Shown: positions 1,772 through 55,397 of the stretch, piece by piece
Position numbering within the stretch: position 1 is the first letter of the stretch
Layout: each line of letters opens with the position of its first letter
Assembly (NCBI GenBank): GCA_902591025.1
Contig: CACIZB010000001.1
Coordinates: 62,001 to 126,000 of the forward strand
Length of the DNA: 64,000 nt
Origin: an uncultured Pelagibacteraceae bacterium
Lineage (GTDB): Bacteria > Pseudomonadota > Alphaproteobacteria > Pelagibacterales > Pelagibacteraceae
Direction: 5' to 3'
Notes under the pieces: generated by a model
The model's database searches: none
What the model saw: only the letters and a program-made list of their open reading frames with translations
Told to the model about the DNA's origin: nothing
Position numbers and translations under genes: made by a program

Positions 1772-2965
1772 TTATAATTTAATTTGATTAGAAATCATTA
1801 ATGGAACTAACCAGTCACGTAATTTTGTTAAATAGATATTTTCAGAATTTGTTTCGATTATTTTTTTTAAATTTATATTTGTTAGTGATTTAAATTTCTT
1901 GATAGGAGATAAATCTTTTTCAGGAATACATATTTTGATTTTAGATAAATTTTTTCTAGTAATTTGACCTTGAACTGAACCTGTGATTGCACTGGAAATA
2001 TTACTGAGTGAAATCGCTCTGTGTAAAAAAGTTATACTTAACTCATTTATCTTTGGTTTTATAACCATGGAATTACCAGTTATCCATGAACATGGTTGAG
2101 TGATATGTAAATTACCACAATCTCCTCTACATGAAATTATTAATTCTGTTTCTTTGTGATTATACCTATCGTATCTACCAATTATACCATTAGAACCATA
2201 AACTAAATATTTACCATCCTGTTTGAGTTGTTCTTGAGAAATTATTTCAGGTTGGTAAAGATCACAAATTTCTCCTAATTCTACATAAGTAAAATCTTCT
2301 GGAATTTCACGATCAAAATCCTCATTAAATACCATCTTGCCTCCTGACGATTTATAATTTTTATCAAAATCAAACTGTAAAAACCAATAATCGTAAATTG
2401 TTTTATTCAGATTATAAATCTCATTTATGATTTTTTTATTAATCTTTATTTTTGATTGTATCGCAAATAATAAATCTCCATATTTTACTTGATCATCATA
2501 ATCAGGAAGAAATAATTCTAAATAGGAAAAAATTTTTTCATTTAAGCTTGCTCTTAAAGTTAAAACAGAATTGTTAGTCATCATTTTTCTAAAAAAGTTA
2601 CTCCTTAAATAAAACGCAATATATTTATGATAAACAGATTCATTTTTTTTTGGTCTCAATCTTTTCAAAAATCCGCTATAAGTTGCATTTTTATAATCTT
2701 TTAAAGCAACACTGCTTATTCCAAGCTCATCAATAGTTTCGCTTGTTCTTGTAAGAAGTATGTCACCTTTTTTTATTGAATATTTTTCTTTCTCGGCATC
2801 ACTAGTATCCATTAAATCTTTTAGCTCATCTGGTAAGAAATAATCATCATACACGCATTTAAAAGATACAAAAGGATAACCTTTACCTGACTGTTCGGCT
2901 TTGGTAGATATTCCCGACTCCATTTTATACAATTCATCAAACTTATATTTTTTAATCTTTTTCAT
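1772..2965 (-). CDS. hsdS: Type I restriction-modification specificity subunit S
   Basis: HsdS gives the methyltransferase and restriction complexes their bipartite DNA target. The 397-residue protein shows the usual layout: a first target-recognition domain (about 1-155), a helical spacer around 160-200, a second recognition domain (about 225-375) containing DGKYLVYGSNGIIGRY and a SCRGDCGN segment, and a C-terminal helix ending in RDWLVPLM. The first 14 nt overlap the end of hsdM. Only one hsdS is present and I see no inverted repeats that would suggest shuffling of specificity domains. The target sequence cannot be predicted by eye. Confidence 0.92.
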   Translation of the reverse strand: MKKIKKYKFDELYKMESGISTKAEQSGKGYPFVSFKCVYDDYFLPDELKDLMDTSDAEKEKYSIKKGDILLTRTSETIDELGISSVALKDYKNATYSGFLKRLRPKKNESVYHKYIAFYLRSNFFRKMMTNNSVLTLRASLNEKIFSYLELFLPDYDDQVKYGDLLFAIQSKIKINKKIINEIYNLNKTIYDYWFLQFDFDKNYKSSGGKMVFNEDFDREIPEDFTYVELGEICDLYQPEIISQEQLKQDGKYLVYGSNGIIGRYDRYNHKETELIISCRGDCGNLHITQPCSWITGNSMVIKPKINELSITFLHRAISLSNISSAITGSVQGQITRKNLSKIKICIPEKDLSPIKKFKSLTNINLKKIIETNSENIYLTKLRDWLVPLMISNQIKL

Positions 2966-4592: not shown

Positions 4593-4603
4593 ATTTTTTA
4601 AAT

Positions 4604-7591
4604 TTATAAATCATTAAACTCTGAAATGTATTCATTTGTAATTAAATTATTGATAAATCCAGAAGTTTTTACATCAATATTCAATTGATTATTTTTATTA
4701 AAACTATCGATAACTAATGGCATAGATACTTGCTCAAAATAACCTTCATTATTAATAATTTGATTATTTTTTAAAACTTGATCATCTAAATTTTTTTTAA
4801 TCGTATTAAGTGCTTCAAAGACTAGACCCTCGTCCTTAAATATATTTTTTTCTACAATCCTTTTGTGTACTCTTAAATATTTAGGATCATTTAAATATTT
4901 GTTTTTAATTAAATCATTTTTTTGACTCAATGTATTTGCTTTATTTGAAATAATTTCAAGTAATTCAATATTTTTTTTCATTTGTTCTTGGGAAATTTCC
5001 TCTAAATTTTTACTTTGAAATAATCTTTTCAGCTCTTCATATAGTGTTACGTACTCAGGATCCTTTTTGTCCAGATTTTTTTTTAGGTTCTTTCGAGTCT
5101 CCTCAAGTTTGTTTCTTAAATTGTCAGCAATTACCAATTCCTCTTGACCGATTTTTTTAAATAAGAAAACAATGTTTTCTAAGGCTGAATTTAATAAATA
5201 AGAATTATCATTTTTTCTTGCCAAAGACTCTCTTAAATTGATCAAGTCCAGATGTCTGGACACTTCATTATATAGTTGGTGTAATTTCTTAAAATCTAGT
5301 AATTCAATTAAGTCTTTTTCTCCACTTAATCTAATTAAATTATATAAATTTTTTGAACTTTCTAAGGCTTTTTTTATTTCTAATATAGTTTCTTTATCAC
5401 TAATTTTACTTATTTGCTGAGAAAAAATTTCTTGGTTATTTAAATCGTAATATAAAAGTTTGTTTTTTATATTCTTAATTTCATTATCTAAGAATTCTTT
5501 AGACTCAAAGAGGTTCGAGAAAGATGAAATTTCATCACCCAACTCACTCTTTAATTCTTCAAAATAAGCTCTATTTGTTTTATCAAATTCTTTAGTAATA
5601 TCCGCAAAATCAACAACAAAACCGTATTTGTAATCTTTGTAAGGACGATTTACTCGAGTTAACATTTGTAGAAGATTGTGATCTTTTATTATTCTACCAA
5701 CGTAAATTTTTTTTAATCTGTTTGCGTCAAAACCTGTAAGAAGCATATTGTAAACAAATAAAATATCAATTTTTCCTTGTTTAAAATTATCGGTTATATC
5801 TTCACGTTCATCCTTGTCTCCTACGTCATGTAAAATTAATTCAGCTTTTAAATTTGTATTTTTATATTTTTTTAAATAATGACTGTATAAATTTTTTGCT
5901 TGATCAGAACTATCACATACCACCATTGATCCAAAAGTATCATCACCAAATTTTATTCTACTAGATTTGATGTCATCAAATATAAATTCAATAAGCTTAT
6001 CGACAAACTTATCATGGGAATATAATTCTCTTTTTTTTATGTCCCCTTTTAAGACAAGCTCATTTAAAATATTATTAAGTTGTTTCTTATAATTGGTGTC
6101 TATTTCTTCTCTGATTAATTTTAATGTATATCCATCTTTTATTGAGTCATTGTAATAATATTTATGTATATATGGTCCAAATATATCTCTTGATTTTCTA
6201 TCTTGCTGAATTAATGGAGTACCTGTTAAACCAATTAATATAGCATCACGATCAGAGTTAACTAAGTTTGCTAAAAAACTACCACTTGGGTTGTAGCTCC
6301 TATGTACCTCATCTAAAAAATAAACTCTTTGCACCTTAGTGTCATAACTAATATCTGTTATTATCTCATTATCATCTTTAAATTTTTGAATATTTACAAC
6401 TGTAATTTCTTTCTTTCCTCTAAAATTATGTGTTGCAACTTTTTTTTTGAAATCTTTTAACAATTCTTCTTTTGAATTAACGGTATGGACAGTTAAGTCC
6501 CTACTAATAAATTCTGATTTTGCTTGTTTTGCTAAATCTATCCTGTCAACAATAAAATAAAATTTTGAAATAATATTTTTTTTCTGGAAGAAATCTGTCA
6601 AATATTTAACATTGAAATATGACAGTGCAGTCTTACCACTTCCTTGAGTGTGCCATATAATTCCCTTTTTATCACCTTTTTCAATTTTATTTTTAATAGA
6701 ATCAGTGGCAAAAAATTGAGGATATCGCATCACGTGCTTCTCAATACCTTCAAAACTTTTTATATATACCAAGCCATACTTCAATAAAAAGGAAGCTCTA
6801 TTTTTTGAAAACAAAGATGTTAAAATTTTATTTGTTGGAGAATTTGTTTTTTTATTAGTTTTAAACTCAGGGGAATGCTTGATTGATAAAAGATTATTAT
6901 CCTGCAAAACATAATTTTCAATTTCATCTGGAATATTTGGAACCTCATTTAATAAATTATCGTTTTCTTCTCTAAAATAATTAAATTTTACCTTGCTACT
7001 GCTTGTGGTTGAATAAAAAGCACCCTGTAAAGGTTCTGTTGAAAGATCGTCATATTCCATATTATTTGAATAAACAAGAATTTGTAATAAATTTATAAAT
7101 TTTCTAAACTTCTTATTCTTAAATCTAATATTGATTCTATCTCTTTCAGCAATAATGCCCTCTTTGTTATTTGGTTTTTTTACCTCAATTATAAAAAGAG
7201 GAATTCCATTAATTAATAAAGTGATATCTGGTCTAAATTCATCTTCACCATTCTTAAAAGTAAGTTCTGTAACAACATTAAAGGTGTTTTCATCAAATTT
7301 TTCAAAATCTATAATCTTTATATCTGAAGATGAGGTTAAAATTTGGTAAAAGGTTTTACCAAGATCTTCATAATCTAAAACAAGAGATATCTCTTCTAAT
7401 TTTTTTTGAATATCTTCATTGCTAATTTTTGGATTTATATTTTTGATGCTTTTAAAAAAAATATCTGTGAAAATATTTGTATCCTTATCTATTTTGTGTT
7501 TTTCTTTAGTAAGAGATAAATATTTATAACCAAGTTTACAGACATGTAAAATTGCAGGAATCTTAACTCTACTATCTTCATTAAAGCTCAT
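4604..7591 (-). CDS. hsdR: Type I restriction endonuclease subunit R
   Basis: The 995-residue motor and nuclease subunit. The N-terminal PD-(D/E)xK nuclease is visible as FRPDITLLINGIPLFIIEVKK, with D122, E136 and K138 as likely catalytic residues. The helicase part carries Walker A HTQGSGKTA (314-322), the DEVH box (427-430) and GLTGTP shortly after. The C-terminal part is long and helical and should bind the methyltransferase core. It is the first gene of the hsdRMS operon. All key motifs are intact, so the system looks functional. The start at 7591 has no clear Shine-Dalgarno sequence and a predicted very short leader. Confidence 0.96.
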   Translation of the reverse strand: MSFNEDSRVKIPAILHVCKLGYKYLSLTKEKHKIDKDTNIFTDIFFKSIKNINPKISNEDIQKKLEEISLVLDYEDLGKTFYQILTSSSDIKIIDFEKFDENTFNVVTELTFKNGEDEFRPDITLLINGIPLFIIEVKKPNNKEGIIAERDRINIRFKNKKFRKFINLLQILVYSNNMEYDDLSTEPLQGAFYSTTSSSKVKFNYFREENDNLLNEVPNIPDEIENYVLQDNNLLSIKHSPEFKTNKKTNSPTNKILTSLFSKNRASFLLKYGLVYIKSFEGIEKHVMRYPQFFATDSIKNKIEKGDKKGIIWHTQGSGKTALSYFNVKYLTDFFQKKNIISKFYFIVDRIDLAKQAKSEFISRDLTVHTVNSKEELLKDFKKKVATHNFRGKKEITVVNIQKFKDDNEIITDISYDTKVQRVYFLDEVHRSYNPSGSFLANLVNSDRDAILIGLTGTPLIQQDRKSRDIFGPYIHKYYYNDSIKDGYTLKLIREEIDTNYKKQLNNILNELVLKGDIKKRELYSHDKFVDKLIEFIFDDIKSSRIKFGDDTFGSMVVCDSSDQAKNLYSHYLKKYKNTNLKAELILHDVGDKDEREDITDNFKQGKIDILFVYNMLLTGFDANRLKKIYVGRIIKDHNLLQMLTRVNRPYKDYKYGFVVDFADITKEFDKTNRAYFEELKSELGDEISSFSNLFESKEFLDNEIKNIKNKLLYYDLNNQEIFSQQISKISDKETILEIKKALESSKNLYNLIRLSGEKDLIELLDFKKLHQLYNEVSRHLDLINLRESLARKNDNSYLLNSALENIVFLFKKIGQEELVIADNLRNKLEETRKNLKKNLDKKDPEYVTLYEELKRLFQSKNLEEISQEQMKKNIELLEIISNKANTLSQKNDLIKNKYLNDPKYLRVHKRIVEKNIFKDEGLVFEALNTIKKNLDDQVLKNNQIINNEGYFEQVSMPLVIDSFNKNNQLNIDVKTSGFINNLITNEYISEFNDL

Positions 7592-12743: not shown

Positions 12744-15299
12744 TTAATCATTTGAATTATTTTCTAATGATTTAATATTGATAAATTTATCAGATAACGA
12801 ATTATTATTTTTTTTTATTTCTTCAAAAAAATTCCATGCCAAGACTAATATTGCTGTGTTTTTATCTTTTATTTTTGTTTTTGAATAAATTGGAATATTT
12901 ACTCCAGGTATAAATTTTTTATGTTTAAGCTTATTATCTTCAACTATAAAGTCTATCTCATTTGATATTCCAAAAAAATTAAGAGAGGTAGTGGCTTTAG
13001 CTGGAGCACCATATCCTACTATTGATTTTTCATTCTTCTTAATTTCTCTAATATTTTTTAAAACATTTTGTCTTATCTCATATACTTTTTCACCAAAAGA
13101 TTTGTAGGTTTCAAATCGTTTAATTCCAAAATTTTCCTCTTCTAGTAAAAATTTATTTATACTTTTGTCTATTTTTATTTTTGGGTTTTTTGAAATATAA
13201 ACTCTTAATGAGCCACCATGAGTGTTAATTTTTTCAGCTTTATATATCTTTAAGGGGTATTTCTTAAAAAAGTTAACTAAAGAGGTAAGAGACCAATAAT
13301 TATAATGTTCATGATAAATGTTATCAAAAGTAAGATCTTTTAAAGTATTCATTAAGTATTGAACTTCTATGATTATTGTTCCTTTTTTACTCAAAAGTTT
13401 AATCATGCAAGTTACCATTTCATTTAGATTGTCTGAGTGTGCAAATACGTTTGATGCTAAAATTAAATCAGCATTTTTTTTTAATTTTTTAATATTTTTT
13501 TGAGTTAAAAAACCATTAAAAGTTTTGATCTTATTTTTATTTGCTAGTTTAGCTAAGTTTTTTGCAGGTTCTATTCCTAAAATTTTTTTGAATTTTTTAT
13601 CTAAAAATGGTTTTAAAGCTACTCCATCGTTACTTCCAACATCTATGATATAGGACTTTTTTGAATTTAATTTAAACTCAGTAATATATTTGTTTGCTGC
13701 ATTAACAAAATGATCTCTAAATATTTTTGATGTAGATGAAGTATAAAGATAATTCGAAAACATTTTTTTAGAGTCAACTGCAACAGAGAGCTGACAGTTA
13801 TGACACTTTTCACAGTAATTCATTTCCAAAGGATATAATTCAGTTTTTTGATTTTTTTTATCTAATAAATTATTAGCTAGGGGTTGATATCCTAGAGAAA
13901 GAACTCTTTTTAATTTTGTATTTCCACAAGATCTACAATCAAATTTATAGCAACTCAAAAGTAAATCTCTTTCATTTTCATCAACAAAAGCATGTCTAAT
14001 TGTATGTGTTACACCATAGTTTTCATGCTCTCTTTCACCTCTCACAAGATTTAAAAAAGTTGTATCTTTCGTAAAAACCATCGTGTGAGCTACGTTTGGT
14101 TTTATTATTGAAATCTGTCCTTCATTAACAACTTGTGTAATTTTTGGGGAATTTGGGTTTAGTATATCTTGAAAAATTTCAATTATCTGACCTTTTGTAA
14201 ATAAACACTTTTGTTCTTGTTGAGGGTGATAATGATTTGCCCTTATAGTTCCTTTTTTTGAGTCAATTAACCCAATCATATTTATTGGCTCAGTAAGTTC
14301 ATGATTGCTAATCTTTCCTCTTTCATCAATAAACTCATCAGTGCCATCTTTCACGTGTTCTAGATCTTTAATTAGATCTTGTTTAGACCATTTTGATATC
14401 ATTTCTTTAATACTTTCATCTAGTCCATATAAAAATTTGAAACCTGTCTTTAATAATTTTTCATTTGATAATGAAAAACCTAAATTTGGAACTTCATCAT
14501 TTGTCTCTTTAAGTTTTATATTTGGGTTATATTTTTTACAAATTTCTGCCACATCTTTTACGGTGACAGTATCCTTGGTTAAGTTAAATATTTCTGAAGA
14601 TATATCTTCTTTTTCTTCCATGAATTTGAAACATCTTGCAACATCAATTAACGGAACTAAGCTTTTGATTTGCCTTCCTCCAGCATAAAGTTTTAACAAC
14701 CCATCTTGTGAAGAAATTTTAGAAAAAAGATTCGTCATTATATCCAATCTTGTCGTATCAGTTGAATATCCATAAACTGACCCAAGTCTTAATATTATAA
14801 AATTCTTTCCAGATTCTCTTAATTGTTTCTCATTATATGCTTTCGATTTTCCATAAGCTAAAACTGGCAGAGTAACATCATTTTCTGAAATATTTTTTTT
14901 TACGTCTCGTATGCCCTCATAAACAACATGAGTTGAAGGTAGAATAATTTTACAATCATCTTTTATCGAATTAATTATGTTCTGAGTGCCCTCAATAGCT
15001 ACTTCCTCAATCTTTTTTTCATGTTCAACATTCGCTTCACTCTTTACTCTTGGAACATCAGTTATTCCAGCAAGATGATGAACAATGTCAGCATCAGAGC
15101 AATGCTTATGAATAAGGTCTTTATCCAAAATATCCCCATGAATGAATTCAATGTTCCAATTTCTAAGTTGATTTACTCTTTCTGAAATAAATCGGTTATC
15201 GATAACTATTATTTTATCATTCCAACTATATCCAGAATATATCTTACAGAGTTCAGTTCCAATATAACCAAGACCTCCTGTTATAACTATTTTTTTCAT
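12744..15299 (-). CDS. Three-domain sugar-modifying fusion: epimerase/dehydratase, cupin, C-methyltransferase
   Basis: A single 851-residue frame joins three enzymes normally encoded separately. Residues 1-310 form an NAD(P)-dependent short-chain epimerase/dehydratase with GGLGYIG (8-14) and catalytic Y149xxxK153. Residues about 335-440 form a cupin resembling dTDP-sugar isomerases, with NHYHPQQEQ (355-363) and PNVAHT. Residues about 450-851 match the sugar C-methyltransferase layout: a zinc-binding head (C455/C458 and C496/C499/C502), SAM motif IIDVGSNDG (551-559), and a C-terminal VGYGAPAKA domain. It probably builds a branched or methylated nucleotide sugar for surface glycan. The GT2 gene lies 5 nt upstream. 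The substrate is unknown. Confidence 0.85.
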   Translation of the reverse strand: MKKIVITGGLGYIGTELCKIYSGYSWNDKIIVIDNRFISERVNQLRNWNIEFIHGDILDKDLIHKHCSDADIVHHLAGITDVPRVKSEANVEHEKKIEEVAIEGTQNIINSIKDDCKIILPSTHVVYEGIRDVKKNISENDVTLPVLAYGKSKAYNEKQLRESGKNFIILRLGSVYGYSTDTTRLDIMTNLFSKISSQDGLLKLYAGGRQIKSLVPLIDVARCFKFMEEKEDISSEIFNLTKDTVTVKDVAEICKKYNPNIKLKETNDEVPNLGFSLSNEKLLKTGFKFLYGLDESIKEMISKWSKQDLIKDLEHVKDGTDEFIDERGKISNHELTEPINMIGLIDSKKGTIRANHYHPQQEQKCLFTKGQIIEIFQDILNPNSPKITQVVNEGQISIIKPNVAHTMVFTKDTTFLNLVRGEREHENYGVTHTIRHAFVDENERDLLLSCYKFDCRSCGNTKLKRVLSLGYQPLANNLLDKKNQKTELYPLEMNYCEKCHNCQLSVAVDSKKMFSNYLYTSSTSKIFRDHFVNAANKYITEFKLNSKKSYIIDVGSNDGVALKPFLDKKFKKILGIEPAKNLAKLANKNKIKTFNGFLTQKNIKKLKKNADLILASNVFAHSDNLNEMVTCMIKLLSKKGTIIIEVQYLMNTLKDLTFDNIYHEHYNYWSLTSLVNFFKKYPLKIYKAEKINTHGGSLRVYISKNPKIKIDKSINKFLLEEENFGIKRFETYKSFGEKVYEIRQNVLKNIREIKKNEKSIVGYGAPAKATTSLNFFGISNEIDFIVEDNKLKHKKFIPGVNIPIYSKTKIKDKNTAILVLAWNFFEEIKKNNNSLSDKFINIKSLENNSND

Positions 15300-15304
15300 T
15301 TAAT

Positions 15305-16000
15305 TTAAACTTTTATAAATCTTTCACACACAATTCTAAAGATTACACTAAAGATATGATAAAATTTGATTTTTTTTCCTTCTTCATGAGTTCTGCCATT
15401 GTAAGAAATAGGAACTTCATAAAATTTTCTACCCTTTTTAACTACTTTACAAAGAATTTCAGCATGTTGTTCAAATCCTGAAGTTTTAAGCTCATTGTAG
15501 TCTAACAGTTTATTTTTATAACAGAGATAACAAGAATAAATATCGGTAAATGTTGTATTATAAAGAATATTAAAAATAAAAGTCAAAAAATAATTACCAA
15601 TTTTATTTAATATACTGTGTGATTTAGTGTATTCACTAAAGTTAAATCTAGATCCAATAATAACATCTGCGTCGAATTCTCTACAAACTCTAATAAATTT
15701 TTTAAACTCAATTGGATCATATTCAAGGTCGCCATCTTGAAAGATTATATAATCTCCTTTGGCAATTTTAAGTCCTTCTCTTACCGAATATCCTTTACCT
15801 AAATTTTTATTATTATTTATTAATGTTGAAAATAGATTTTTATTATTTTCTAATAAATTTTTAGTGTCATCTGTTGAGCCATCGTTAATTACAATAAATT
15901 CATATTCTATATTTTCTATTTTGGTTTGATTGAGTCTCTCTAATATTTTTAAAATCGTTTTTTCTTCGTTAAAAACTGGAATTATCACTGAAAATTTCAT
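15305..16000 (-). CDS. GT2-family glycosyltransferase (dolichyl-phosphate mannosyltransferase-like)
   Basis: A 231-residue GT-A glycosyltransferase. It begins FSVIIPVFNEEKTI, followed by NDGSTDD (39-45) and the metal and nucleotide-binding region FQDGDLEYDP (87-95). The architecture is like short family 2 enzymes that load sugars onto polyprenyl phosphate. There is no C-terminal membrane helix. It is the first gene of a minus-strand unit with the fusion gene and the autotransporter. Donor and acceptor cannot be told from the sequence. Confidence 0.85.
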   Translation of the reverse strand: MKFSVIIPVFNEEKTILKILERLNQTKIENIEYEFIVINDGSTDDTKNLLENNKNLFSTLINNNKNLGKGYSVREGLKIAKGDYIIFQDGDLEYDPIEFKKFIRVCREFDADVIIGSRFNFSEYTKSHSILNKIGNYFLTFIFNILYNTTFTDIYSCYLCYKNKLLDYNELKTSGFEQHAEILCKVVKKGRKFYEVPISYNGRTHEEGKKIKFYHIFSVIFRIVCERFIKV

Positions 16001-16097
16001 AAATATAATTTAATAAATAATTTATACTAAATTTACTCTATTAAAAGAAAAAATATAATTGTAATAAAATTGAAAGTTAATTAAAAAAAATTCATTT

Positions 16098-17075
16098 ATG
16101 AAAAATGATGTAGAAAAAAATATATCTATTTTGATACCCTCGAAGATCCTAGATGATAATTTGAGGTACTGCATAAAACAAATAAGGAAATTTTACAAAA
16201 ATATAAAAATAATTTTAGTTTTAGATAAATCCTCTGTATCTAAAGTGGATAAAAATATTCAAATAGTTATTTCTGGAAATAAAACTATTGGATTTAAAAG
16301 AAATTTAGGTCTCAAGCATGTAGTTACTAAATTTGTATCTTTTATTGATAGCGACGCATATCCGAATTCACGTTGGTTAGATGAAAGTTTAAATTTATTT
16401 AAAAATAGAAAAATTGCTTTAGTAGGTGGGCCAAATTTATCTCCAAAAACTAAAAATATTGAAAAAATTTTAGTTGCGAGATCAAGAAAGAATTCAATAG
16501 TTACACTTAATCCTAAAGTAAAATCTATTAAAACTAATAAACATTTTATAAATTTTTTACCAAGTTGTAATATGATAATGAGAACTTCAATATATAAAAA
16601 AATTAAAGGGATGGATCCACGACTTTACTCTAGTGAAGAAATTTCTTTAAACTACAAATTAAACAAAAAGGGTTTTAAAATGGTTTTTAGTCCCAAAGTT
16701 TTCATTTTTCACTCTGATAGAAATTTTAAACATTTTGCTCGCCAAAGATTTATTTATGGTTCAACTGGCTTATGGTGTTTAATAAGATATCCATGTAAGG
16801 AAAGTTTTATGTTGTTTGCATCAAGCTTTCCAACATTATTTATTTTATTTTTTCCAATGGTATTTATTGGTAACGCCTTAAAGTTGACTTTTTTATTTGG
16901 TATACTTTTCCTAATTTTATTAATATTTATAAATAGTGTGAAAATTAATTTTAAAAATAATTTTTTTAAAAGTGTAAAATTATCTTTTATAAGTTTCTTT
17001 TATCCAGGTCTAGGTCTTCTTGCGAGAATTTTTTTGAAAAATGATACATTTAAAAAATTGTATACACAAAAATAA
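16098..17075 (+). CDS. Membrane-associated GT2-family glycosyltransferase
   Basis: 325 residues. The N-terminal GT-A domain has ILIPSK, a GFKRNLGL segment and the DSD motif in SFIDSDAYP (84-86). An acceptor region with SSEEISLNYKL follows near 185. The C-terminus has two or more membrane segments (about 220-260 and 262-275) and a basic tail. It is likely an inner-membrane enzyme in surface polysaccharide or glycolipid synthesis. It ends 2 nt before the radical SAM gene, so the two are almost certainly co-expressed. Confidence 0.8.
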   Translation: MKNDVEKNISILIPSKILDDNLRYCIKQIRKFYKNIKIILVLDKSSVSKVDKNIQIVISGNKTIGFKRNLGLKHVVTKFVSFIDSDAYPNSRWLDESLNLFKNRKIALVGGPNLSPKTKNIEKILVARSRKNSIVTLNPKVKSIKTNKHFINFLPSCNMIMRTSIYKKIKGMDPRLYSSEEISLNYKLNKKGFKMVFSPKVFIFHSDRNFKHFARQRFIYGSTGLWCLIRYPCKESFMLFASSFPTLFILFFPMVFIGNALKLTFLFGILFLILLIFINSVKINFKNNFFKSVKLSFISFFYPGLGLLARIFLKNDTFKKLYTQK

Positions 17076-17077
17076 AA

Positions 17078-18181
17078 ATGATATTTAAAAAAACAAACAT
17101 AGCAAAAGTTTTAAATAATGTGTATTTTAAAAAAAAAACTCCTATTAGTCTTATTCATTTTTTAACAAATAGATGCAACGCGAGATGCTCTTTCTGCTTT
17201 ATTGATTTTGATAATCCAAAAACTTTTGCTGGAGAATTAACTTTGGAAGAAATTGATAAAATGACAAAAAATATGGGAGAAACTTTATTAAATGTGAATT
17301 TTACTGGTGGGGAACCTTTTGCAAGAAAAGATATTGTAGAGATAGCAAAAACCTATATTAGAAATACAACTATTCAATCAATTTATATAACTACCAATGC
17401 AAGTCTACCCGATAGAGTAATTGATTTTGCTAAAGAAATTAATAATTTTGATCCTAATATTGAATTAAGTTTTCAAATATCTATAGATGATCTACCAGAA
17501 AAACATAATTCTGTTAGAAAAATTAAAAATTTATTTGATAGCTGCTTAATTACTTATAATAGTCTTCGAGATCTAAAAAATCCAAAGATTAACCCTTCTG
17601 TTAACATAACTGTATCAGAGGAAAACTGTTCTAATATAAAATCTATTTTTTATTACTTTGTTAATGATTGCAATATAGACTCAATAAAATGCTGTATAGT
17701 AAGAGATGAAGGTATATACAAAACAGCGGATGACAAGAAAAAAAAAATATTGGATGCATATACATGGCTGACAGAAGAAATTAAAAATTTAAAAAAATCA
17801 AAAAAAATCAAAAATTATAACAACTCACTTCAAGGTAAAATTCATAATACAAAAGATGATATTTCCTGGGAAATGGTAAAAAAAATTTATAAAGACAATA
17901 CCTATTTGAGTCCATGTCATGCATCATCTTTATTTGGTGTTATAACTGCAGATGGAAAAATTTACCCATGTGAAATACTTGAGGATAAATTAATAGGCGA
18001 TTTAAGAAAAAATGATATGGATTTTTTAAAAGTTTGGAATAGTCCTACAAACACAGATGTTAAGAGATTTATACATAAAACTAATTGTAGGTGTACATAT
18101 GAATGTGCAATTTCTTTTAATATTTTGGGTAATTGGCGTTATCAACACAAACTAATTTCTAGCCTTTTAAATCGTTATTAA
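17078..18181 (+). CDS. Radical SAM protein with C-terminal cysteine-rich (SPASM/twitch-like) region
   Basis: A 367-residue radical SAM enzyme. The 4Fe-4S motif CNARCSFC (C33, C37, C40) and the SAM-binding GGEP (77-80) are intact. The C-terminal quarter has further cysteines (SPCHASS, YPCEIL, NCRCTYECA) in a DGKIYPCE context typical of SPASM or twitch domains that hold auxiliary clusters. Such enzymes modify peptides, sugars or lipids; no substrate can be named here. It follows the GT2 gene by 2 nt and precedes the glucosylglycerate genes by 37 nt, so a glycan or lipid modification is a reasonable guess. Confidence 0.82.
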   Translation: MIFKKTNIAKVLNNVYFKKKTPISLIHFLTNRCNARCSFCFIDFDNPKTFAGELTLEEIDKMTKNMGETLLNVNFTGGEPFARKDIVEIAKTYIRNTTIQSIYITTNASLPDRVIDFAKEINNFDPNIELSFQISIDDLPEKHNSVRKIKNLFDSCLITYNSLRDLKNPKINPSVNITVSEENCSNIKSIFYYFVNDCNIDSIKCCIVRDEGIYKTADDKKKKILDAYTWLTEEIKNLKKSKKIKNYNNSLQGKIHNTKDDISWEMVKKIYKDNTYLSPCHASSLFGVITADGKIYPCEILEDKLIGDLRKNDMDFLKVWNSPTNTDVKRFIHKTNCRCTYECAISFNILGNWRYQHKLISSLLNRY

Positions 18182-18218
18182 ATTTTTTTTATTTATCTTT
18201 TGTGCTTATAATTAGATA

Positions 18219-19025
18219 ATGAAGAAAATATTCTCAATTGTAATATTCACTGATTTAGATGGCTCTCTTTTACACAGAGAGACTTTTAAATTTGATCAAA
18301 TCAAAGAATATATAAAATCACTTATAGATAAAGGAATAATTATCATTCCGAATACAAGTAAAACCGATAAAGAGATTGAAAAATTTAATAAAGAACTTGG
18401 AGTAGAGCTCCCATACATTTCAGAAAATGGATCATTAATACATGGCCTAAATCTAATCAATACTAATTTTCCCAATAAAATCGTTCTTAGTCGATCAAAA
18501 GAAGAATTATTAAAAATTTTTAACAATAAAGTATCTGAAAAATTAAGAAATAAATGCATACAAATTTTAAATATTAATAAAAAAGAACAAGAAAAAATTC
18601 TGGGACAAAAAGATGAAAAACTTAAGGATGCCTTGGATAGAAAGTATACTTTACCCTTTTTATTCAAAGGAGATAAAAAAGATAAAAATAAATTATTAAA
18701 AATTTTAAATTCTTGCTCATTAACTTTCCAAGAAGGTGGCCGTGTTTCAAATCTTTGTGATAATACAAATAAAGTAAAATCAATGAATAGAGTAGTAAAA
18801 ATTTTAAAAAAAACTGAGGATAAGATTAAAACAATAGCAGTTGGTGATAATTATAATGATTTAGACATGCTTAAAAAATGTGATGTACCGTGTTTAGTTT
18901 TCAATGATCAATTTAAATTAGAAGAAATAAATATTGACAATCTTATATTTTCAAATAAGCCATCACCTGAGGGCTGGGCTGATGTGATTAAAATGGCTCT
19001 AGATAAATTGAATTATAAAGTCTAA
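18219..19025 (+). CDS. Glucosyl-3-phosphoglycerate phosphatase (HAD-IIB, MpgP-like)
   Basis: A HAD-superfamily phosphatase of 268 residues in the mannosyl/glucosyl-3-phosphoglycerate phosphatase group. Motif I is FTDLDGSLL with D12 and D14, motif II is PNTSKTDKE, and the C-terminal motif IV is AVGDNYNDLDML. The cap of about 100 residues between motifs II and IV fits type IIB. The next gene encodes a glucosyl-3-phosphoglycerate synthase, so this enzyme should release glucosylglycerate from the phosphorylated intermediate. Mannosyl specificity is not excluded by sequence alone. Confidence 0.8.
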   Translation: MKKIFSIVIFTDLDGSLLHRETFKFDQIKEYIKSLIDKGIIIIPNTSKTDKEIEKFNKELGVELPYISENGSLIHGLNLINTNFPNKIVLSRSKEELLKIFNNKVSEKLRNKCIQILNINKKEQEKILGQKDEKLKDALDRKYTLPFLFKGDKKDKNKLLKILNSCSLTFQEGGRVSNLCDNTNKVKSMNRVVKILKKTEDKIKTIAVGDNYNDLDMLKKCDVPCLVFNDQFKLEEINIDNLIFSNKPSPEGWADVIKMALDKLNYKV

Positions 19026-19033
19026 AATTTAAA

Positions 19034-20254
19034 ATGGGTGATTTTTCTCAAAATGGAATAATATCAACTTTACATGACTTTGGAACAAGATCTACAAGTG
19101 AAATTGAAAAAGATCTGCTAAGATTTTCCAAAGAAAGAAAGATGGAGTTAATTTTACCTTGTTTATATTCTGAACTAGAGGGAACTGCTTTACCAAAAAT
19201 CGTAGATGAGATAAGTAAAACTAAATATTTAGATCATGTTATTGTTGGTTTAGATAAAGCAAACCTTGCTCAAGCAAAAAAAGCTTGGAAATTTTTTAAA
19301 AAATTAAAAACCCCTTTTTCCCTTTTATGGAATGATGGGCCTGAACTAAAAAAACTTGATCAAGAGTTAAAAAAAAAAGATCTCTCACCCAGTGAGCTCG
19401 GTAAAGGTAGAAATGTTTGGTATTGCATTGGCATGTCCATAGCAAGAGATACTGCTCGTTCAGTAGCTCTGCACGATTGTGATATTAAAACTTATGATAG
19501 AAGAATGTTAGCAAAACTTTTTTATCCCGTGGTAAATCCACTTTTTAACTTTGAGTTTTGTAAAGGATATTACCCAAGAGTAGCGAACAGTAAAATGAAT
19601 GGTCGAGTTGCAAGATTACTTGTTTTTCCTTTACTAACAGCTTTAGAAAAAACTATCGGTAAAAGTGATTATTTAAATTTTATGAAGTCATTTAAATATC
19701 CCTTAGCTGGAGAATTTTCATTTAGACGAAATGTATTGCCAGAATTAAGAATATCTTCTGATTGGGGAATAGAAGTTGGAATTTTATCTGAAATGCAAAG
19801 AAGTTTTTCGCCTCAAAATATTTGTCAAGTAGATTTGGCAGATACATATGATCACAAGCATCAGGTTTTATCTATAGATGACGAAACTAAAGGACTATCT
19901 AGAATGTCAATCGATATTATTAAAACGTTTATAAAAAAATTAGCTACTCAAGGGAATTCATTTAGTCGAGAAAAATTTAGATCTTTAAAGGCAACTTATT
20001 ACAGATCAGCTTTAGATTTAATCGATATATATAGGAGTGATGCATATATGAATGGTTTAGAGTTTGACTCTCATACTGAAGAGAAGGCCGTTGAATTATT
20101 TGCAATGAATATTATGAAAGCTGGAGAAGCTTTTATTCTTAATCCAATGGATACACCTTTTATACCAACATGGAGTAGAGTTAAAAGTGCTATCCCTGAT
20201 TTTTTGAAAAGATTAGAAAGAGCTGTTAATGAAGATAACAAAAAATATTATTAA
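19034..20254 (+). CDS. gpgS: Glucosyl-3-phosphoglycerate synthase (GT81-like)
   Basis: A 406-residue glycosyltransferase resembling GpgS, which transfers glucose from a nucleotide sugar to 3-phosphoglycerate. Supporting features are the early ELILPCLYSELEG segment, the GKGRNVWYCIGMSIA region, the metal-binding DCD (148-150) within ALHDCDIKTYD, the FCKGYYPR stretch, and SSDWGIEVGIL with the later DTYDHKHQ motif. It lies 8 nt after the phosphatase and overlaps the phosphorylase start at TAATG. Expression with those genes makes a compatible-solute pathway. The alternative is a close mannosyl-3-phosphoglycerate synthase relative. Confidence 0.82.
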   Translation: MGDFSQNGIISTLHDFGTRSTSEIEKDLLRFSKERKMELILPCLYSELEGTALPKIVDEISKTKYLDHVIVGLDKANLAQAKKAWKFFKKLKTPFSLLWNDGPELKKLDQELKKKDLSPSELGKGRNVWYCIGMSIARDTARSVALHDCDIKTYDRRMLAKLFYPVVNPLFNFEFCKGYYPRVANSKMNGRVARLLVFPLLTALEKTIGKSDYLNFMKSFKYPLAGEFSFRRNVLPELRISSDWGIEVGILSEMQRSFSPQNICQVDLADTYDHKHQVLSIDDETKGLSRMSIDIIKTFIKKLATQGNSFSREKFRSLKATYYRSALDLIDIYRSDAYMNGLEFDSHTEEKAVELFAMNIMKAGEAFILNPMDTPFIPTWSRVKSAIPDFLKRLERAVNEDNKKYY

Positions 20255-21978
20255 TGTTATCCAAAATAAATCAAAAAAGAATCTATTCTAAATTAAATAA
20301 TATTTATAAAATTCATTGTCCAAGTGAAAATATTTATTTTTACACAAATGAAATTGTAAAACTCATAAATAGGTTTAATAAAAAAAATAAAAAAAAGAAA
20401 AAATATATATCTGAAAAAACCTCAATGCTTATTTGCTATGGAGATAGCATTTTTTCCCAAAATCAAAAACATTCAATTAAAGTATTCAAAAACTTCTTTA
20501 ATAAAAAATTAAGTAAAAATTTTAATACTGTTCATTTTTTACCATTTTATCCCTCAAGCAGTGATAGTGGTTTTGCAGTTAAAGATCATTACAAAATTGA
20601 TAGCAAACTTGGAAATTGGTCTGATATTAAAACTTTTTCTAAAAAAAATGATGTGATGGCAGACATTGTCATTAATCATTCATCTGCAAGAGGTTTATGG
20701 TTTAAAAATTTTTTAAAAGGAAAAAGACCTGGTAAAGATTATTTTTTTACGGTAGATAGTAAATTTAACACCTCAAAAGTGGTGAGGCCAAGAGATCATA
20801 AACTATTAAAAAAAATAAATATTTTTAATAAAATTGATTATCTTTGGCGAACATTCAGCCCAGATCAACTAGACCTAAATTTTAAAAACCCTGCAGTATT
20901 ATTGCGCTTTATAAAGATTATGATTAATCTAATTAATAATGGAGTGACTATTTTTAGATTAGACGCAATCGCTTACTTATGGAAGGAAAGTGGAACAAAG
21001 TGTATTAACTTAAGAAAGACACATGAAATTATAAAAATCCTAAGAATAATTATTAGCTTGCTAAATACTCAAAGCCTAATAGTTACTGAAACTAATTTAC
21101 CTGAAAAAGAAAATTTAAGTTACTTTGGAAATCATGATGAAGCTAATTGGATATATAATTTTTCCTTGCCACCTTTATTAATACATGCCTTTTTATTTGA
21201 AAATAATTTCTATCTCTATAATTGGAGTAAAAAACTTCCGAAAAGTAAAGTCGGAAATTGTTATCTAAATTTTATTGCATCTCATGATGGTATTGGAATT
21301 AGGCCTACTGAAGGAATACTGAGTGACAAAGTCTTAAAAGATTTTCTAAACAGACTAAAGAAAAATGGATCAAAATTTTCATATAGAAAAATTCAAAACA
21401 AATCAAAAAAAGTTTACGAGGCAAATATAACAGTATTTGATGCTTTAAAAAAAACTAATTACGATAATGGTGAATTTGCTTTTGACAGGTATGTTTCTGC
21501 GCATTCAATAATGATTGCATTCGAGGGAGTACCTGCCATTTATTTTAACTCTATATTTGGCACATCTAATGATGAGGCAAAGTTTGTAATTACCGGTAAT
21601 AATCGAGATGTTAATAGATATAAATGGAATTTAAAAAATATTACAAACAAACTTAATAATAAAGATTCTAAAGAAAGTTTTTTTTATAAAAAAATTTCCA
21701 ATCTATTAATTATCAAAAAAAAGCAAAAAGCATTTCATCCAAACGCGAATAGAGAGAATATTAATCTTGGATCAAAAATATTTTCTTTTAAAAGAGAAAG
21801 TATTGATAAAAAACAAACTATAATTTGCATAACAAATCTCTCCTCAGAAATGCAATATTTCAAGTTAAATAAAAAGTTTTTAAAATATAAGGACTTATTA
21901 GGAAGTAAAATATTTTTTACACTTGATAAAAAAATTAAGCTAGATCCCTGTCAAACACTCTGGCTATCTAATAGATAA
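20254..21978 (+). CDS. GH13_18 phosphorylase, probable glucosylglycerate phosphorylase
   Basis: 574 residues, a sucrose-phosphorylase-like GH13 enzyme. HFLPFYPSSSDSGFAVKDH (about 94-112), the nucleophile D237 in IFRLDAIAY, the acid/base E279 in VTETNLP and D345 in ASHDGIG are present. The RLDAIAYLWKESGT and THEII segments fit the subgroup that includes glucosylglycerate and sucrose phosphorylases. Placement directly after gpgS favours glucosylglycerate: phosphorolysis would return glucose 1-phosphate and glycerate. It begins at the TAATG overlap with gpgS and converges with the Anbu gene, leaving 1 nt between stops. Exact substrate specificity is inferred from context. Confidence 0.78.
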   Translation: MLSKINQKRIYSKLNNIYKIHCPSENIYFYTNEIVKLINRFNKKNKKKKKYISEKTSMLICYGDSIFSQNQKHSIKVFKNFFNKKLSKNFNTVHFLPFYPSSSDSGFAVKDHYKIDSKLGNWSDIKTFSKKNDVMADIVINHSSARGLWFKNFLKGKRPGKDYFFTVDSKFNTSKVVRPRDHKLLKKINIFNKIDYLWRTFSPDQLDLNFKNPAVLLRFIKIMINLINNGVTIFRLDAIAYLWKESGTKCINLRKTHEIIKILRIIISLLNTQSLIVTETNLPEKENLSYFGNHDEANWIYNFSLPPLLIHAFLFENNFYLYNWSKKLPKSKVGNCYLNFIASHDGIGIRPTEGILSDKVLKDFLNRLKKNGSKFSYRKIQNKSKKVYEANITVFDALKKTNYDNGEFAFDRYVSAHSIMIAFEGVPAIYFNSIFGTSNDEAKFVITGNNRDVNRYKWNLKNITNKLNNKDSKESFFYKKISNLLIIKKKQKAFHPNANRENINLGSKIFSFKRESIDKKQTIICITNLSSEMQYFKLNKKFLKYKDLLGSKIFFTLDKKIKLDPCQTLWLSNR

Positions 21979-21979
21979 A

Positions 21980-22705
21980 TTATTTTTCCCAATCAAATCT
22001 TGGAAAAGAGTCGAAAATTTTAAATATACCATCCGACCATTGATTACAAACTTTAGAGTATTCTTCATCAGCAATGTTTAAACATTTTTGTGCAAGTATT
22101 TTATATTCATCTTTTTTGTAAACCACAAAATCAATAGGTGGCCCAACAGTTAAATCGCTTTTTAAAGTAGAGTCGATTGAAATCAAAGCACACCTAGAAG
22201 CATCTCCTATAGTTACATCAGGTTTTATAACTCTATCTAAAATTGGTTTGCCATATTTAACCTCACCAATTACTAAATAAGGTTTGCTATCTGCTGGCTT
22301 GATATAATTACCCTGAGGGTAAACCAAATAAAGTTCCATAGGTTGGCCTTTAATTTGTCCACCAACTATAAAAGTTGATCCTAATAAAACTGTATCGGTA
22401 TTAATTCCTTTTGGCATTGAATGTTCAACATTTAGAGATCCTACATAAGAAGCTATTTGATCAAAATCTTTACAAGTATTTAAATTCATAATTCCAGATG
22501 TATCTTTTAAATCTTTTTCAATAGACTTATATACAGCTTGTGAAGTACCTAAATTTCCTGAAGTGACAATTACAATTGTTCTATTACCAACATCATAAGT
22601 AAACATTTTAGAATAAATATTTACATTATCCAGTCCTGCATTAGTTCTTGAATCTGATGCAAAGACTAGACCATCTTTCGCTTTTATACCAATACAATAA
22701 GTCAT
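21980..22705 (-). CDS. Anbu-type proteasome-related peptidase
   Basis: A 241-residue member of the bacterial proteasome-like family (Anbu, related to HslV and the 20S beta subunit). After Met removal the N-terminus is Thr (TYCIGIKAKDGLVFASDSRTN), giving the nucleophile Thr2, with Asp18 in ASDSR and Lys33 in YSKM as the other expected catalytic residues. Anbu forms self-assembled rings without a dedicated unfoldase in studied species. The divergent neighbour is a circularly permuted ATP-grasp protein, the known partner gene of Anbu. The usual alpha-E and transglutaminase-like partners are not in this window. Confidence 0.85.
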   Translation of the reverse strand: MTYCIGIKAKDGLVFASDSRTNAGLDNVNIYSKMFTYDVGNRTIVIVTSGNLGTSQAVYKSIEKDLKDTSGIMNLNTCKDFDQIASYVGSLNVEHSMPKGINTDTVLLGSTFIVGGQIKGQPMELYLVYPQGNYIKPADSKPYLVIGEVKYGKPILDRVIKPDVTIGDASRCALISIDSTLKSDLTVGPPIDFVVYKKDEYKILAQKCLNIADEEYSKVCNQWSDGIFKIFDSFPRFDWEK

Positions 22706-22709
22706 ATTT

Positions 22710-22738
22710 ATTAAGCAATATTTTTAAATTTGCTTAAT
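22710..22738. promoter_or_regulatory. 9-bp perfect inverted repeat in the Anbu/ATP-grasp intergenic region
   Basis: ATTAAGCAA (22710-22718) and TTGCTTAAT (22730-22738) are exact reverse complements around an 11-bp centre. The structure begins 4 bp upstream of the Anbu start codon in the divergent intergenic region. It could be an operator, or a hairpin covering the Anbu ribosome-binding region. Confidence 0.5.
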
Positions 22739-22814
22739 GTATAATCTATTTCTTACATAACAGGTATAACAATTATACAATTGAATTAATTAGTTTAAAA
22801 TTTGAAGATATATT

Positions 22815-24257
22815 ATGGCCTCTAAATTATGGAAAGATTATAACGCTAAAAATGCATATGATGGTTATTTTACAGCGGACAACAAATTAAGAAAACACGC
22901 AAAAATAATATCTGGAATTTTAGAAAAATATGGGAAGAAAAAACTTCAAGAAATTGAAAAAAATTGTCAAAGTACAATTAGTGCCAGAGGAATAAATTTT
23001 AGAGTTTACGCTGCAAATAATAGAGCCGAAGAAAAAAAATGGCCTTTAGATATCATCCCTAGAATAATACCTAAACCCGTTTGGAATAAAATTTCAAAAG
23101 GTTTAAAACAAAGGGCTAAAGCTCTTAATCTTTTTATTGATGATATCTATAATCAAAAAAAAATTTTTAAAGATAATATAATACCTGCTGACTTAATTTT
23201 AAAATCTCCTTATTATATAAAGCAATGTGAAGGTTTTTCACCAAAATTTAAAGCTTGGTCAAATATATCTGGGATTGATTTAATTAGAAATAAAAATGGA
23301 GAATATTTAGTTCTTGAAGATAATTTAAGAGTACCATCAGGTGTCTCTTATATGCTTGAGAACAGAATGGTTATGATGGATGTTTTTCCAGAACTATTTT
23401 CTAGATATAAAGTTTCATCAATTCATCAATACACAAACAAATTATACAATTGTATGGTCGAATGTATTCCAAAAAAGACAGCCAATCCTCATATGGTTGT
23501 TTTAACTCCTGGTATTTATAATTCAGCTTACTTTGAACATTCATTTTTAGCAGAGCAAATGGGTATTGCTTTAGTCGAGGGTAAAGATCTTTTTGTTGAA
23601 GATGATAATGTTTACATGAAAACTGTAAAAGGGCCTCTTAAAGTTGACTGTATATACAGAAGACTTGATGACAGTTATTTGGATCCTAAAGTGTTTAATA
23701 AAGAGTCTTTAATCGGCGTTCCAGGTTTATTTAAATGTTGGTTAAAAAAAAATGTTGGTATCTTAAATGCAATAGGAACAGGGGTTGCAGATGACAAAGT
23801 TGTCTATTCGTATGTAAATAAAATGATTACTTATTATCTAGGTGAACAACCTTTGTTAAACCAAGTAGAAACATATTTATGTCATGAAGAAGATCAAAAA
23901 AAATATGTTTTGGAAAATCTATCTAAGTTAGTTGTAAAACCTGCAAATGCCTCTGGTGGCTATGGTTTAATGATAGGACCCAAAGCGCCAAAAAAAGAGA
24001 TTGAAGAGGTAAGACAGAAAATTTTAAAAAATCCAAGAGAATTTATTGCTCAACCACTAGAAGTGTTGTCAACTGGTCCAACTATAACTAATAATAATAT
24101 TGAGCCGAGACATGTTGATTTAAGACCATTCGTTTTAACAGGAAAATCAAATTATGTAACTTCAGGCGGACTAACAAGAGTAGCTTTAAGAAAAGGTAGC
24201 ACTATTGTAAATAGTTCACAAGGTGGCGGATCCAAAGACACCCTAATTGTTGGTTAA
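22815..24257 (+). CDS. Circularly permuted ATP-grasp type 2 family protein (DUF404/DUF407)
   Basis: 480 residues. The characteristic stretches are WPLDIIPRIIP, the EDNLRVPSGVSYMLENR region near 175-190, VDCIYRRLDDSYLDP, VVKPANASGGYGLMIGP near 378, and the C-terminal SGGLTRVALRKGS with the GGGSKDT ending. This family typically lies beside alpha-E, transglutaminase-like and Anbu genes and is thought to be a ligase acting on small peptides; no reaction is firmly known to me. It is divergent from the Anbu gene across 109 bp. The length is normal for the family. Confidence 0.88.
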   Translation: MASKLWKDYNAKNAYDGYFTADNKLRKHAKIISGILEKYGKKKLQEIEKNCQSTISARGINFRVYAANNRAEEKKWPLDIIPRIIPKPVWNKISKGLKQRAKALNLFIDDIYNQKKIFKDNIIPADLILKSPYYIKQCEGFSPKFKAWSNISGIDLIRNKNGEYLVLEDNLRVPSGVSYMLENRMVMMDVFPELFSRYKVSSIHQYTNKLYNCMVECIPKKTANPHMVVLTPGIYNSAYFEHSFLAEQMGIALVEGKDLFVEDDNVYMKTVKGPLKVDCIYRRLDDSYLDPKVFNKESLIGVPGLFKCWLKKNVGILNAIGTGVADDKVVYSYVNKMITYYLGEQPLLNQVETYLCHEEDQKKYVLENLSKLVVKPANASGGYGLMIGPKAPKKEIEEVRQKILKNPREFIAQPLEVLSTGPTITNNNIEPRHVDLRPFVLTGKSNYVTSGGLTRVALRKGSTIVNSSQGGGSKDTLIVG

Positions 24258-53942: not shown

Positions 53943-55397
53943 ATGATTCAACCAGTAAAAATAGATCCATACGGTTTTAGGGAATATGACGCAAGATGGG
54001 TTTATAACAAAGATATAAATTCTGAGGGAATCGTCAATCTTGGTAAGGGTTTAGGGACACAGATTCTAAAACACACCAATAAAAAAAATCCCAGAGTGGT
54101 TGTAGGTCATGATTATAGATCATACAGCAAAGAAATTAAATCGGCATTAAAAAAAGGTTTAGTTTCAACTGGTTGTTTTGTGGAGGATGTAGGATTAGCA
54201 TTATCCCCGATGGTTTATTTTGCCCAATTTAACTTAGAAAGTGATGCAGTAGCGATGGTTACTGCAAGTCATAATGAAAATGGATGGACTGGAGTAAAAA
54301 TGGGAATAAAAAAAGGTCTAACTCATGCTCCAGAGGAAATGAAAGAACTTAAGGACATAACAATTAATGAAAAATTTACTACTGGAAAAGGGCAAGCAAA
54401 AGATATTAAAAATTTTCAAGAAATTTATAAGCAGAATCTTATACAAAAAAATAAGATTAACAAAAAAATTAAAGCAGTTGTTGCCTGTGGAAATGGAACA
54501 GCTGGAATTTTCGCGCCAGATATTTTAAGAGGTATAGGTTGTGAAGTTATAGAATTAGACTGCAATCTAGATTGGTCATTTCCAAAATACAATCCAAACC
54601 CTGAAGATTTAGAGATGCTTCATGAAATATCTAAAGCTGTCAAACAAAATAATGCTGATATTGGTTTTGGATTCGATGGTGATGGTGATCGAGTAGGGGT
54701 TATAGATAATAAGGGCAATGAAATATTTTCAGACAAAATTGGTTTGTTAATTGCTAGAAATTTATCTTCAGAACATCAAAATTCGAAATTTATAGTGGAT
54801 GTTAAATCAACTGGCTTATATTCTAATGATGAAGTTTTAAACAAAAATAAATGTAAAGCTATTTACTGGAAAACTGGTCATTCTCACATTAAAAGAAAAG
54901 TTTTTAATGAAAAAGCATTAGCTGGTTTTGAAAAAAGTGGCCATTTCTTTTTTAACCGACCACTTGGTTACGGATATGATGATGGTATAAACTCAGCTAT
55001 TCAAGTTTGCCATTTATTAGATAAACAAAATAAAAAAATGCATGAGATAATAGGTGAACTTCCAATTACATATCAGTCACCTACCATGGCTCCATTTTGT
55101 AAAGATGAGGAGAAATATAAAGTTGTAGATGATATTGTTCAGAAAATCGAAAAAATAAAAAGTAATGAGGAAAAAATTGACGGTCAAAAAATAAAAGAAA
55201 TTCTCACAGTAAATGGAGTAAGATTTTCATTTGAAGATGGTTCGTGGGGATTAATTAGAGCTTCATCAAATAAACCATCTTTAGTTGTTGTGACTGAAAG
55301 TCCAAAGTCTGATGATAGAAAAAAACGAATATTTGAATTTATCGACAATTTACTGCAAGAAACAGGTAAAATTGGTGATTATGATCAGAAGTTATAA
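53943..55397 (+). CDS. Phosphomannomutase/phosphoglucomutase
   Basis: 484 residues of the alpha-D-phosphohexomutase superfamily (AlgC/ManB-like). FREYDARWVYN opens domain 1, the phosphoserine loop is TASHNENGWTG near 101-111, the metal loop FDGDGDRVG near 239-247, the sugar-binding loop GFEKSGHFFF near 326, and the C-terminal phosphate loop RASSNKPSLVV. It interconverts hexose 6- and 1-phosphates for nucleotide sugars. It is divergent from nrdA, with 159 bp shared upstream. Preference between mannose and glucose is not resolved. Confidence 0.9.
   Translation: MIQPVKIDPYGFREYDARWVYNKDINSEGIVNLGKGLGTQILKHTNKKNPRVVVGHDYRSYSKEIKSALKKGLVSTGCFVEDVGLALSPMVYFAQFNLESDAVAMVTASHNENGWTGVKMGIKKGLTHAPEEMKELKDITINEKFTTGKGQAKDIKNFQEIYKQNLIQKNKINKKIKAVVACGNGTAGIFAPDILRGIGCEVIELDCNLDWSFPKYNPNPEDLEMLHEISKAVKQNNADIGFGFDGDGDRVGVIDNKGNEIFSDKIGLLIARNLSSEHQNSKFIVDVKSTGLYSNDEVLNKNKCKAIYWKTGHSHIKRKVFNEKALAGFEKSGHFFFNRPLGYGYDDGINSAIQVCHLLDKQNKKMHEIIGELPITYQSPTMAPFCKDEEKYKVVDDIVQKIEKIKSNEEKIDGQKIKEILTVNGVRFSFEDGSWGLIRASSNKPSLVVVTESPKSDDRKKRIFEFIDNLLQETGKIGDYDQKL

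Follow-up and report, generated by a model that had tools for sequence, protein, structure and literature searches.

A predicted operon for making and recycling glucosylglycerate in SAR11 bacteria, with an ABC importer beside it in some relatives

Gene layout and enzyme assignments

We analyzed a 64-kb stretch of DNA (64,000 nucleotides [nt], here called the window) from an uncultured Pelagibacteraceae bacterium (GenBank assembly GCA_902591025.1, contig CACIZB010000001.1, positions 62,001 to 126,000). Three consecutive genes in the window are predicted to encode a glucosyl-3-phosphoglycerate phosphatase (GpgP), a glucosyl-3-phosphoglycerate synthase (GpgS), and a glucosylglycerate phosphorylase (GGaP) (Table 1). 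The host genome belongs to the SAR11 group (Pelagibacteraceae) and comprises 1.09 Mb in 49 contigs, with 86% completeness. The phosphatase and synthase open reading frames (ORFs) are 8 nt apart, and those of the synthase and phosphorylase overlap by 1 nt at a TAATG junction. An earlier sequence-only reading had placed three adjacent or overlapping genes at positions 18219 to 21978, and the ORF calls reproduce this exactly. We infer co-transcription because of the spacing alone; a promoter scan of positions 15900 to 22900 returned 35 sites versus 46.7 in shuffled sequences (i.e., below chance). No RNA elements were found near the operon, the only such elements in the window being four tRNA genes, all distant.

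The arrangement was compared with the best 80 of at least 521 stretches carrying a relative of the phosphorylase (at least 595 matched); these 80 all come from Pelagibacteraceae or Pelagibacterales, i.e., SAR11. The order phosphatase-synthase-phosphorylase recurs in 69 of these 80 loci, and the three-gene arrangement is therefore not a product of chance. In one further locus, which lies at a contig edge, only the synthase and phosphorylase are seen. The phosphorylase lacks nearby synthesis genes in the remaining 10, two of which lie at contig edges, while eight have 5 kb of upstream sequence.

Very probably, the three genes are a single operon that serves glucosylglycerate (GGA) metabolism. 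Its synthase would transfer glucose to 3-phosphoglycerate from a sugar-nucleotide donor, probably UDP-glucose, and the phosphatase would then strip the phosphate to yield GGA, which may serve as an osmolyte. The phosphorylase would use phosphate to split GGA into glucose 1-phosphate and D-glycerate.

The phosphatase scores 171.8 bits against TIGR01486 (mannosyl-3-phosphoglycerate phosphatase family), above the cutoff of 164.75. It holds intact DLDGS and GDNYND motifs, which we take to be those of the HAD family, and the three solved chains nearest to it all bear the name mannosyl-3-phosphoglycerate phosphatase, in one case as "putative." The synthase matches the GpgS model NF040724 with 361.8 bits over residues 3 to 405; the cutoff of this model is 700, and the shortfall counts against the assignment. 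Its second NCBIfam match, NF010496 (71.2 bits; cutoff, 262), is also a glucosyl-3-phosphoglycerate synthase model, and there was no further NCBIfam match at an E value of ≤0.001 and no Pfam match. Among solved structures, the synthase weakly matches GpgS (7pdo/7p5l) and 3f1y, which is named mannosyl-3-phosphoglycerate synthase. Its DCD at residues 148 to 150, presumably the DxD metal and nucleotide site of what we assume to be a GT81-type enzyme, aligns with the DSD of solved GpgS.

The names of the phosphatase family and of 3f1y raise the alternative that the product of the first two enzymes is mannosylglycerate instead of GGA, and the host genome also encodes a protein resembling GDP-mannose pyrophosphorylase (TIGR01479, 362.9 bits; cutoff, 372.95). 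We nevertheless regard this alternative as very improbable, as the sole NCBIfam matches of the synthase are the two glucosyl synthase models, both below cutoff, and the synthase gene directly precedes a phosphorylase with a GGaP-type fingerprint in 70 of the 80 loci. For glucose rather than mannose as the predicted donor sugar, support comes from a single source, the adjacent GGaP gene.

The third gene encodes a GH13 protein (PF00128). According to the available text of a review of subfamily GH13_18, GGaPs are marked by (T/S)ETN together with a loop-A Glu that replaces the Gln of other clades, whereas loop A reads N(L/V)D(I/L/V)YQ in sucrose phosphorylases and VGAIYQ in glucosylglycerol phosphorylases (PMC7178133). 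The window's phosphorylase has both GGaP marks, with TETN at residues 278 to 281 and Glu389 in loop A. This loop reads VYEANIT (KKVYEAN), compared with IYQ in solved glucosylglycerol phosphorylase and sucrose phosphorylase chains. The sucrose phosphorylase motif is absent (the window loop reads KSKKVYEANITV), as is VGAIYQ, KKVYEAN standing in its place. Across 92 sequences (91 from SAR11, fragments and the window included, plus Escherichia coli YcjM), each of the 91 that extend over the site has TETN or SETN, and all 92 have the loop-A Glu. Identity to YcjM, an annotated glucosylglycerate phosphorylase, is 35.7% over 552 columns; identities to a partial glucosylglycerol phosphorylase and a partial sucrose phosphorylase are 30.8% over 383 columns and 31.0% over 400 columns, respectively. 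On the loop-A and TETN fingerprints, we rejected both of the latter as assignments for the window's enzyme. That it is a sucrose phosphorylase feeding glucose 1-phosphate, in an operon for sucrose use plus solute synthesis, is barely credible: its best NCBIfam match and several of its nearest solved chains bear that name, but the score against this model (TIGR03852) is 163.7 bits, far below the cutoff of 334.4, and the enzyme lacks the sucrose loop-A motif, has Glu for Gln, and carries TETN.

The sequence-only reading had named two outcomes that would undo it, a third enzyme acting only on sucrose or glucosylglycerol and a first pair making mannosylglycerate. The fingerprints and the synthase model matches thus make both unlikely, and its assignments of the third gene to GGaP and of the first two to GGA synthesis hold at the level of sequence. 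Its central proposal, that one operon would both make and recycle GGA, is likewise supported by gene order, family resemblance, and the phosphorylase fingerprints. Its further suggestion, a use of GGA during salt or nitrogen stress, is plausible in the light of published work.

TABLE 1 Features of the window discussed in the text
Feature	Position	Strand	Remark
Predicted glucosyl-3-phosphoglycerate phosphatase (GpgP; HAD-IIB)	18219..19025	+	268-aa ORF
Predicted glucosyl-3-phosphoglycerate synthase (GpgS)	19034..20254	+	406-aa ORF
Predicted glucosylglycerate phosphorylase (GGaP; GH13_18; EC 2.4.1.352)	20254..21978	+	574-aa ORF
GT2 glycosyltransferase and radical-SAM/SPASM protein	16098-18181	+	Directly upstream of operon
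Phosphoglucomutase/phosphomannomutase-family protein	53943..55397	+	Outside operon; PF02878 match
Proteasome-like peptidase and circularly permuted ATP-grasp protein	21980-24257		Mutually divergent
Epimerase/C-methyltransferase ORF	12744-15299	-	851-aa ORF
Type I restriction-modification set	1772-7591	-	Specificity, methylase, and restriction subunits

Distribution in SAR11 and the adjacent ABC importer

We also searched a set of 101 genomes consisting of the window's genome and 100 relatives from four genera. Of these genomes, 13 have the phosphorylase, 19 the synthase, and 20 the phosphatase (a weak match in one, genome G037), and all carriers of any of the three fall within one of the four genera. 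Phosphorylase and synthase occur together in 10 genomes. Three genomes have the phosphorylase alone (G026, G056, and G059), each time at a contig end, and nine have the synthase and phosphatase with no phosphorylase match. Because most carrier genomes are incomplete, single gene absences mean little. Identity to the window's proteins, with fragments included and G037 left out, ranges from 79 to 94% for the synthase, from 60 to 88% for the phosphorylase, and from 47 to 86% for the phosphatase. The synthase is thus better conserved than both of its neighbors.

In all eight readable loci of the 80-locus set that have the phosphorylase alone, a gene for a MalK/UgpC-type ATP-binding cassette (ABC) ATPase lies 25 to 26 nt before the phosphorylase gene. 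The same loci encode a sugar-type solute-binding protein and two permeases divergently from the ATPase (ORFs seen in five loci, tblastn matches in all eight) and contain no synthesis genes. One of these importer-only loci (L132:5001-6545) has a shortened phosphorylase ORF of 514 amino acids, perhaps because of a frameshift close to its end or a mistake in the assembly. The ATPase gene also precedes the phosphatase gene in 23 of 60 readable three-gene loci (those with at least 1.1 kb of upstream sequence); a further locus of this kind lies at a contig edge. As estimated from alignments, the gap between the two genes is 5 to 6 nt in 22 of these 24 cases and 28 to 30 nt in 2. ABC matches below 60% identity are left out of the importer counts. 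In the 101-genome set, the ATPase gene accompanies two of seven readable three-gene loci (window included); in genome G017, the ATPase gene likewise lies by the synthesis genes, with the phosphorylase on another contig.

The ATPase gene was found in none of the eight readable loci of genomes that have synthesis genes but no phosphorylase match. Compared with these eight, the difference is nominally significant for all loci of the 80-locus set (P = 0.018 [by Fisher's test]) and for its three-gene loci only (P = 0.044), in a test that ignores kinship and takes its two sides from different samples (the 80-locus and the 101-genome sets). Within the 101-genome set alone, the counts are 3 of 8 versus 0 of 8. 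From these counts, the importer therefore tends to accompany the phosphorylase rather than the synthesis genes. Since the phosphorylase of relatives often lies beside this importer, the role of the enzyme may include scavenging besides turnover of the cell's own solute; in cells with an adjacent importer, it would also degrade GGA taken up from seawater.

Several observations count against this reading. No importer genes lie within the 64-kb window, 37 of the 60 readable three-gene loci have no adjacent importer, and neither do 5 of the 7 in the 101-genome set. The closest relatives of the window include loci both with and without it.

UgpC/MalK-type ATPases serve many substrates, and the ATPase of one importer-bearing locus (L084) scores above the UgpC subfamily cutoff. 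The third-best solved relative of the binding protein, among 30, is E. coli YcjN, which is encoded next to the GGaP gene ycjM. Identities of the L084 importer proteins to those of E. coli are 24% (YcjN), 31% (YcjO), 36% (YcjP), and 50% (the ycjV pseudogene). As far as the available text of a study of YcjN goes, its ligand is unknown, the screen included kojibiose and glucose and not glucose analogues or glucosides, and two of four clusters combine YcjN-like genes with YcjM-like genes nearby (PMC11543891).

The importer of the relatives might carry another sugar, its place before the phosphorylase being an accident of a variable region. The missing YcjN ligand, the breadth of the ATPase family, and the variability of the spot, with 16 importer changes on the phosphorylase tree and many three-gene loci that do without it, all fit such an accident. 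Against it stands the position of the ATPase gene, which immediately precedes the phosphorylase gene in all eight readable phosphorylase-only loci and is missing from all eight readable loci of genomes without a phosphorylase match. We consider another cargo unlikely without being far-fetched.

The phosphorylase trees are quick ones, with support from the Shimodaira-Hasegawa-like approximate likelihood ratio test (SH-aLRT) only and with the outgroup, YcjM, on a very long branch. On them, the importer-only rows fall in a clade of 11 rows (8 importer-only rows, 2 contig-edge rows, and 1 three-gene row with the importer) that is nested inside three-gene rows. The synthesis genes change state twice on this tree. 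A single clade of importer-only rows is rejected if all other rows, including the two contig-edge ones, are treated as outsiders (P = 0.0007) and is not if the contig-edge phosphorylase-only rows are unconstrained (P = 0.15). The simplest reading is a loss of the synthesis genes within an importer-bearing lineage.

Feeder enzymes, the fate of glycerate, and neighboring genes

On the supply side, the host genome encodes a GalU-like uridylyltransferase (TIGR01099, 243.2 bits; below the cutoff of 326.8) and other sugar nucleotidyltransferases. The phosphoglucomutase/phosphomannomutase-family protein elsewhere in the window (Table 1) could link glucose 1-phosphate to glucose 6-phosphate; its scores against PgmG (NF046027, 278.9 bits; cutoff, 600) and archaeal-type GlmM (284.4 bits; cutoff, 439) are both below cutoff.

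The other product of phosphorolysis would be D-glycerate. Glycerate kinases of family PF13660 were found over the cutoff in none of 61 genomes (one weak, stop-ridden match lay below it), and PF02595 kinases were found in none of 25. Matches to PF00485 are present in 18 of 25 genomes, 6 of them over the cutoff. In 14 of the 25, the match is a kinase of about 300 amino acids with 59 to 72% identity to that of genome G012 (L152:1330-2256). For the G012 protein, the only one checked for structural relatives, the first of 12 solved matches is a D-glycerate 3-kinase (6ckg), the second is 1odf (function unnamed), and the third is GLYK (7xpc). The kinase in these 14 SAR11 genomes is therefore a candidate plant-type D-glycerate 3-kinase (GLYK). 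Such candidates occur in 9 of the 13 genomes with a phosphorylase, in 2 of the 9 with synthesis genes but no phosphorylase match, and in all 3 other genomes searched; PF13660 was not found in the 8 of the 14 candidate-bearing genomes that were searched for it. Plant-type glycerate kinases produce 3-phosphoglycerate, the acceptor of the synthase, and the candidate could thus close a GGA cycle. We had considered that glycerate is obligatorily routed to serine for lack of kinases and gave this up once the candidate was found.

Two results weigh against such a cycle in the host of the window. Searches with PF13660, PF02595, and PF00485 found no glycerate kinase in its genome (86% complete), and because of this, recycling of glycerate via a kinase is unproven there; a weak Pfam model or absent sequence may hide a GLYK. 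In addition, all 25 genomes have 2-hydroxyacid dehydrogenase-family matches, and oxidation by such an enzyme is another possible fate of glycerate. Of the PF00266 aminotransferase matches in the genome of the window, the strong one is SufS, and four others are weaker.

The operon is immediately preceded, on its own strand, by the genes for a GT2 glycosyltransferase and a radical-SAM/SPASM protein, the latter ending 37 nt before the phosphatase gene. The best NCBIfam match of the GT2 protein is mycofactocin MftF (93 bits; cutoff, 280). We dropped the pair as operon members, since neither matches any of the 80 loci (E value, 1e-8); among 20 neighborhood loci, the sole best match to the pair is one of 116 residues with 31% identity to the radical-SAM protein. 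Downstream of the phosphorylase, on the opposite strand, is the gene for a proteasome-like protein, which we take to be of the Anbu type. With the divergently encoded, circularly permuted ATP-grasp protein, it forms a conserved pair that also lies near GGA genes in some relatives, at 83 to 94% identity.

In a check for phage origin, no phage record matched the synthase, and 31 matched the phosphorylase, all below 60% identity and 22 of them from Listeria. Unannotated Listeria phage records contain GH13 genes about 38 to 40% identical to the phosphorylase, possibly as bacterial DNA. Farther off in the window, an 851-amino-acid ORF combines an NAD-dependent epimerase domain with a zinc-binding C-methyltransferase (Methyltransf_13/23/14) and is apparently a fusion of two sugar-modifying enzymes. 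The type I restriction-modification set is unexpected for a genome so small.

Relation to known systems and significance

The core operon is already known in kind. In the cyanobacterium Synechococcus sp. PCC 7002, the accessible part of one report assigns GpgS, GGaP, and GpgP to the neighboring locus tags SYNPCC7002_A2021, A2022, and A2023 (PMC10873239). The three functions are the same, but going by tag numbers, the phosphorylase there lies between synthase and phosphatase, whereas the SAR11 order is phosphatase, synthase, phosphorylase, with the importer in front in some relatives. For Prochlorococcus NATL2A, the text available describes a GGA metabolism operon with a putative transporter gene and suggests uptake (PMC11631117). 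An operon that unites synthesis and recycling with a transporter gene is thus common to both; the difference lies in its single putative transporter gene, compared with the four-gene binding-protein ABC system of some SAR11 and with loci there that lack synthesis genes. The ycjM region of E. coli resembles the SAR11 loci in encoding a GGaP beside a related ABC sugar importer (ycjNOP/ycjV) and differs in having no synthesis genes annotated in a 20-kb region and in adding a kojibiose phosphorylase and sugar dehydrogenases. More generally, GGaP genes lie near glycerate kinase, GpgS, or GpgP genes, from which the specificity was first deduced; SAR11 and an ABC importer go unmentioned in the part of that review available (PMC7178133).

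In SAR11 itself, GGA synthesis genes of offshore genera are already in print (PMC12636525). The bacterial family and the synthesis pathway are the same; the main text, as far as available, names only synthesis and does not contain the word "phosphorylase." A full-text literature search, working at title and abstract level and with subscription papers mostly outside it, found no description of a GGA phosphorylase or importer in SAR11. In the literature searched, the importer link and the synthesis-free variant in SAR11 are thus of modest novelty. The binding protein of this importer also points to GGA as a candidate ligand for E. coli YcjN.

Tentatively, and as a proposal that we rate somewhat short of probable, gain and loss around the phosphorylase may have split SAR11 into makers of GGA (with phosphatase and synthase), cells that make and recycle it (some with the importer), and pure eaters (with the importer and phosphorylase only). 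The MalK-type system would then import GGA, and SAR11 cells would act as a sink for this osmolyte when picocyanobacteria release it. Marine picocyanobacteria contain GGA as a nitrogen-free solute. Should SAR11 bacteria make, import, and phosphorolyze it, GGA would directly link, in terms of carbon, two microbial groups that are among the ocean's most abundant.

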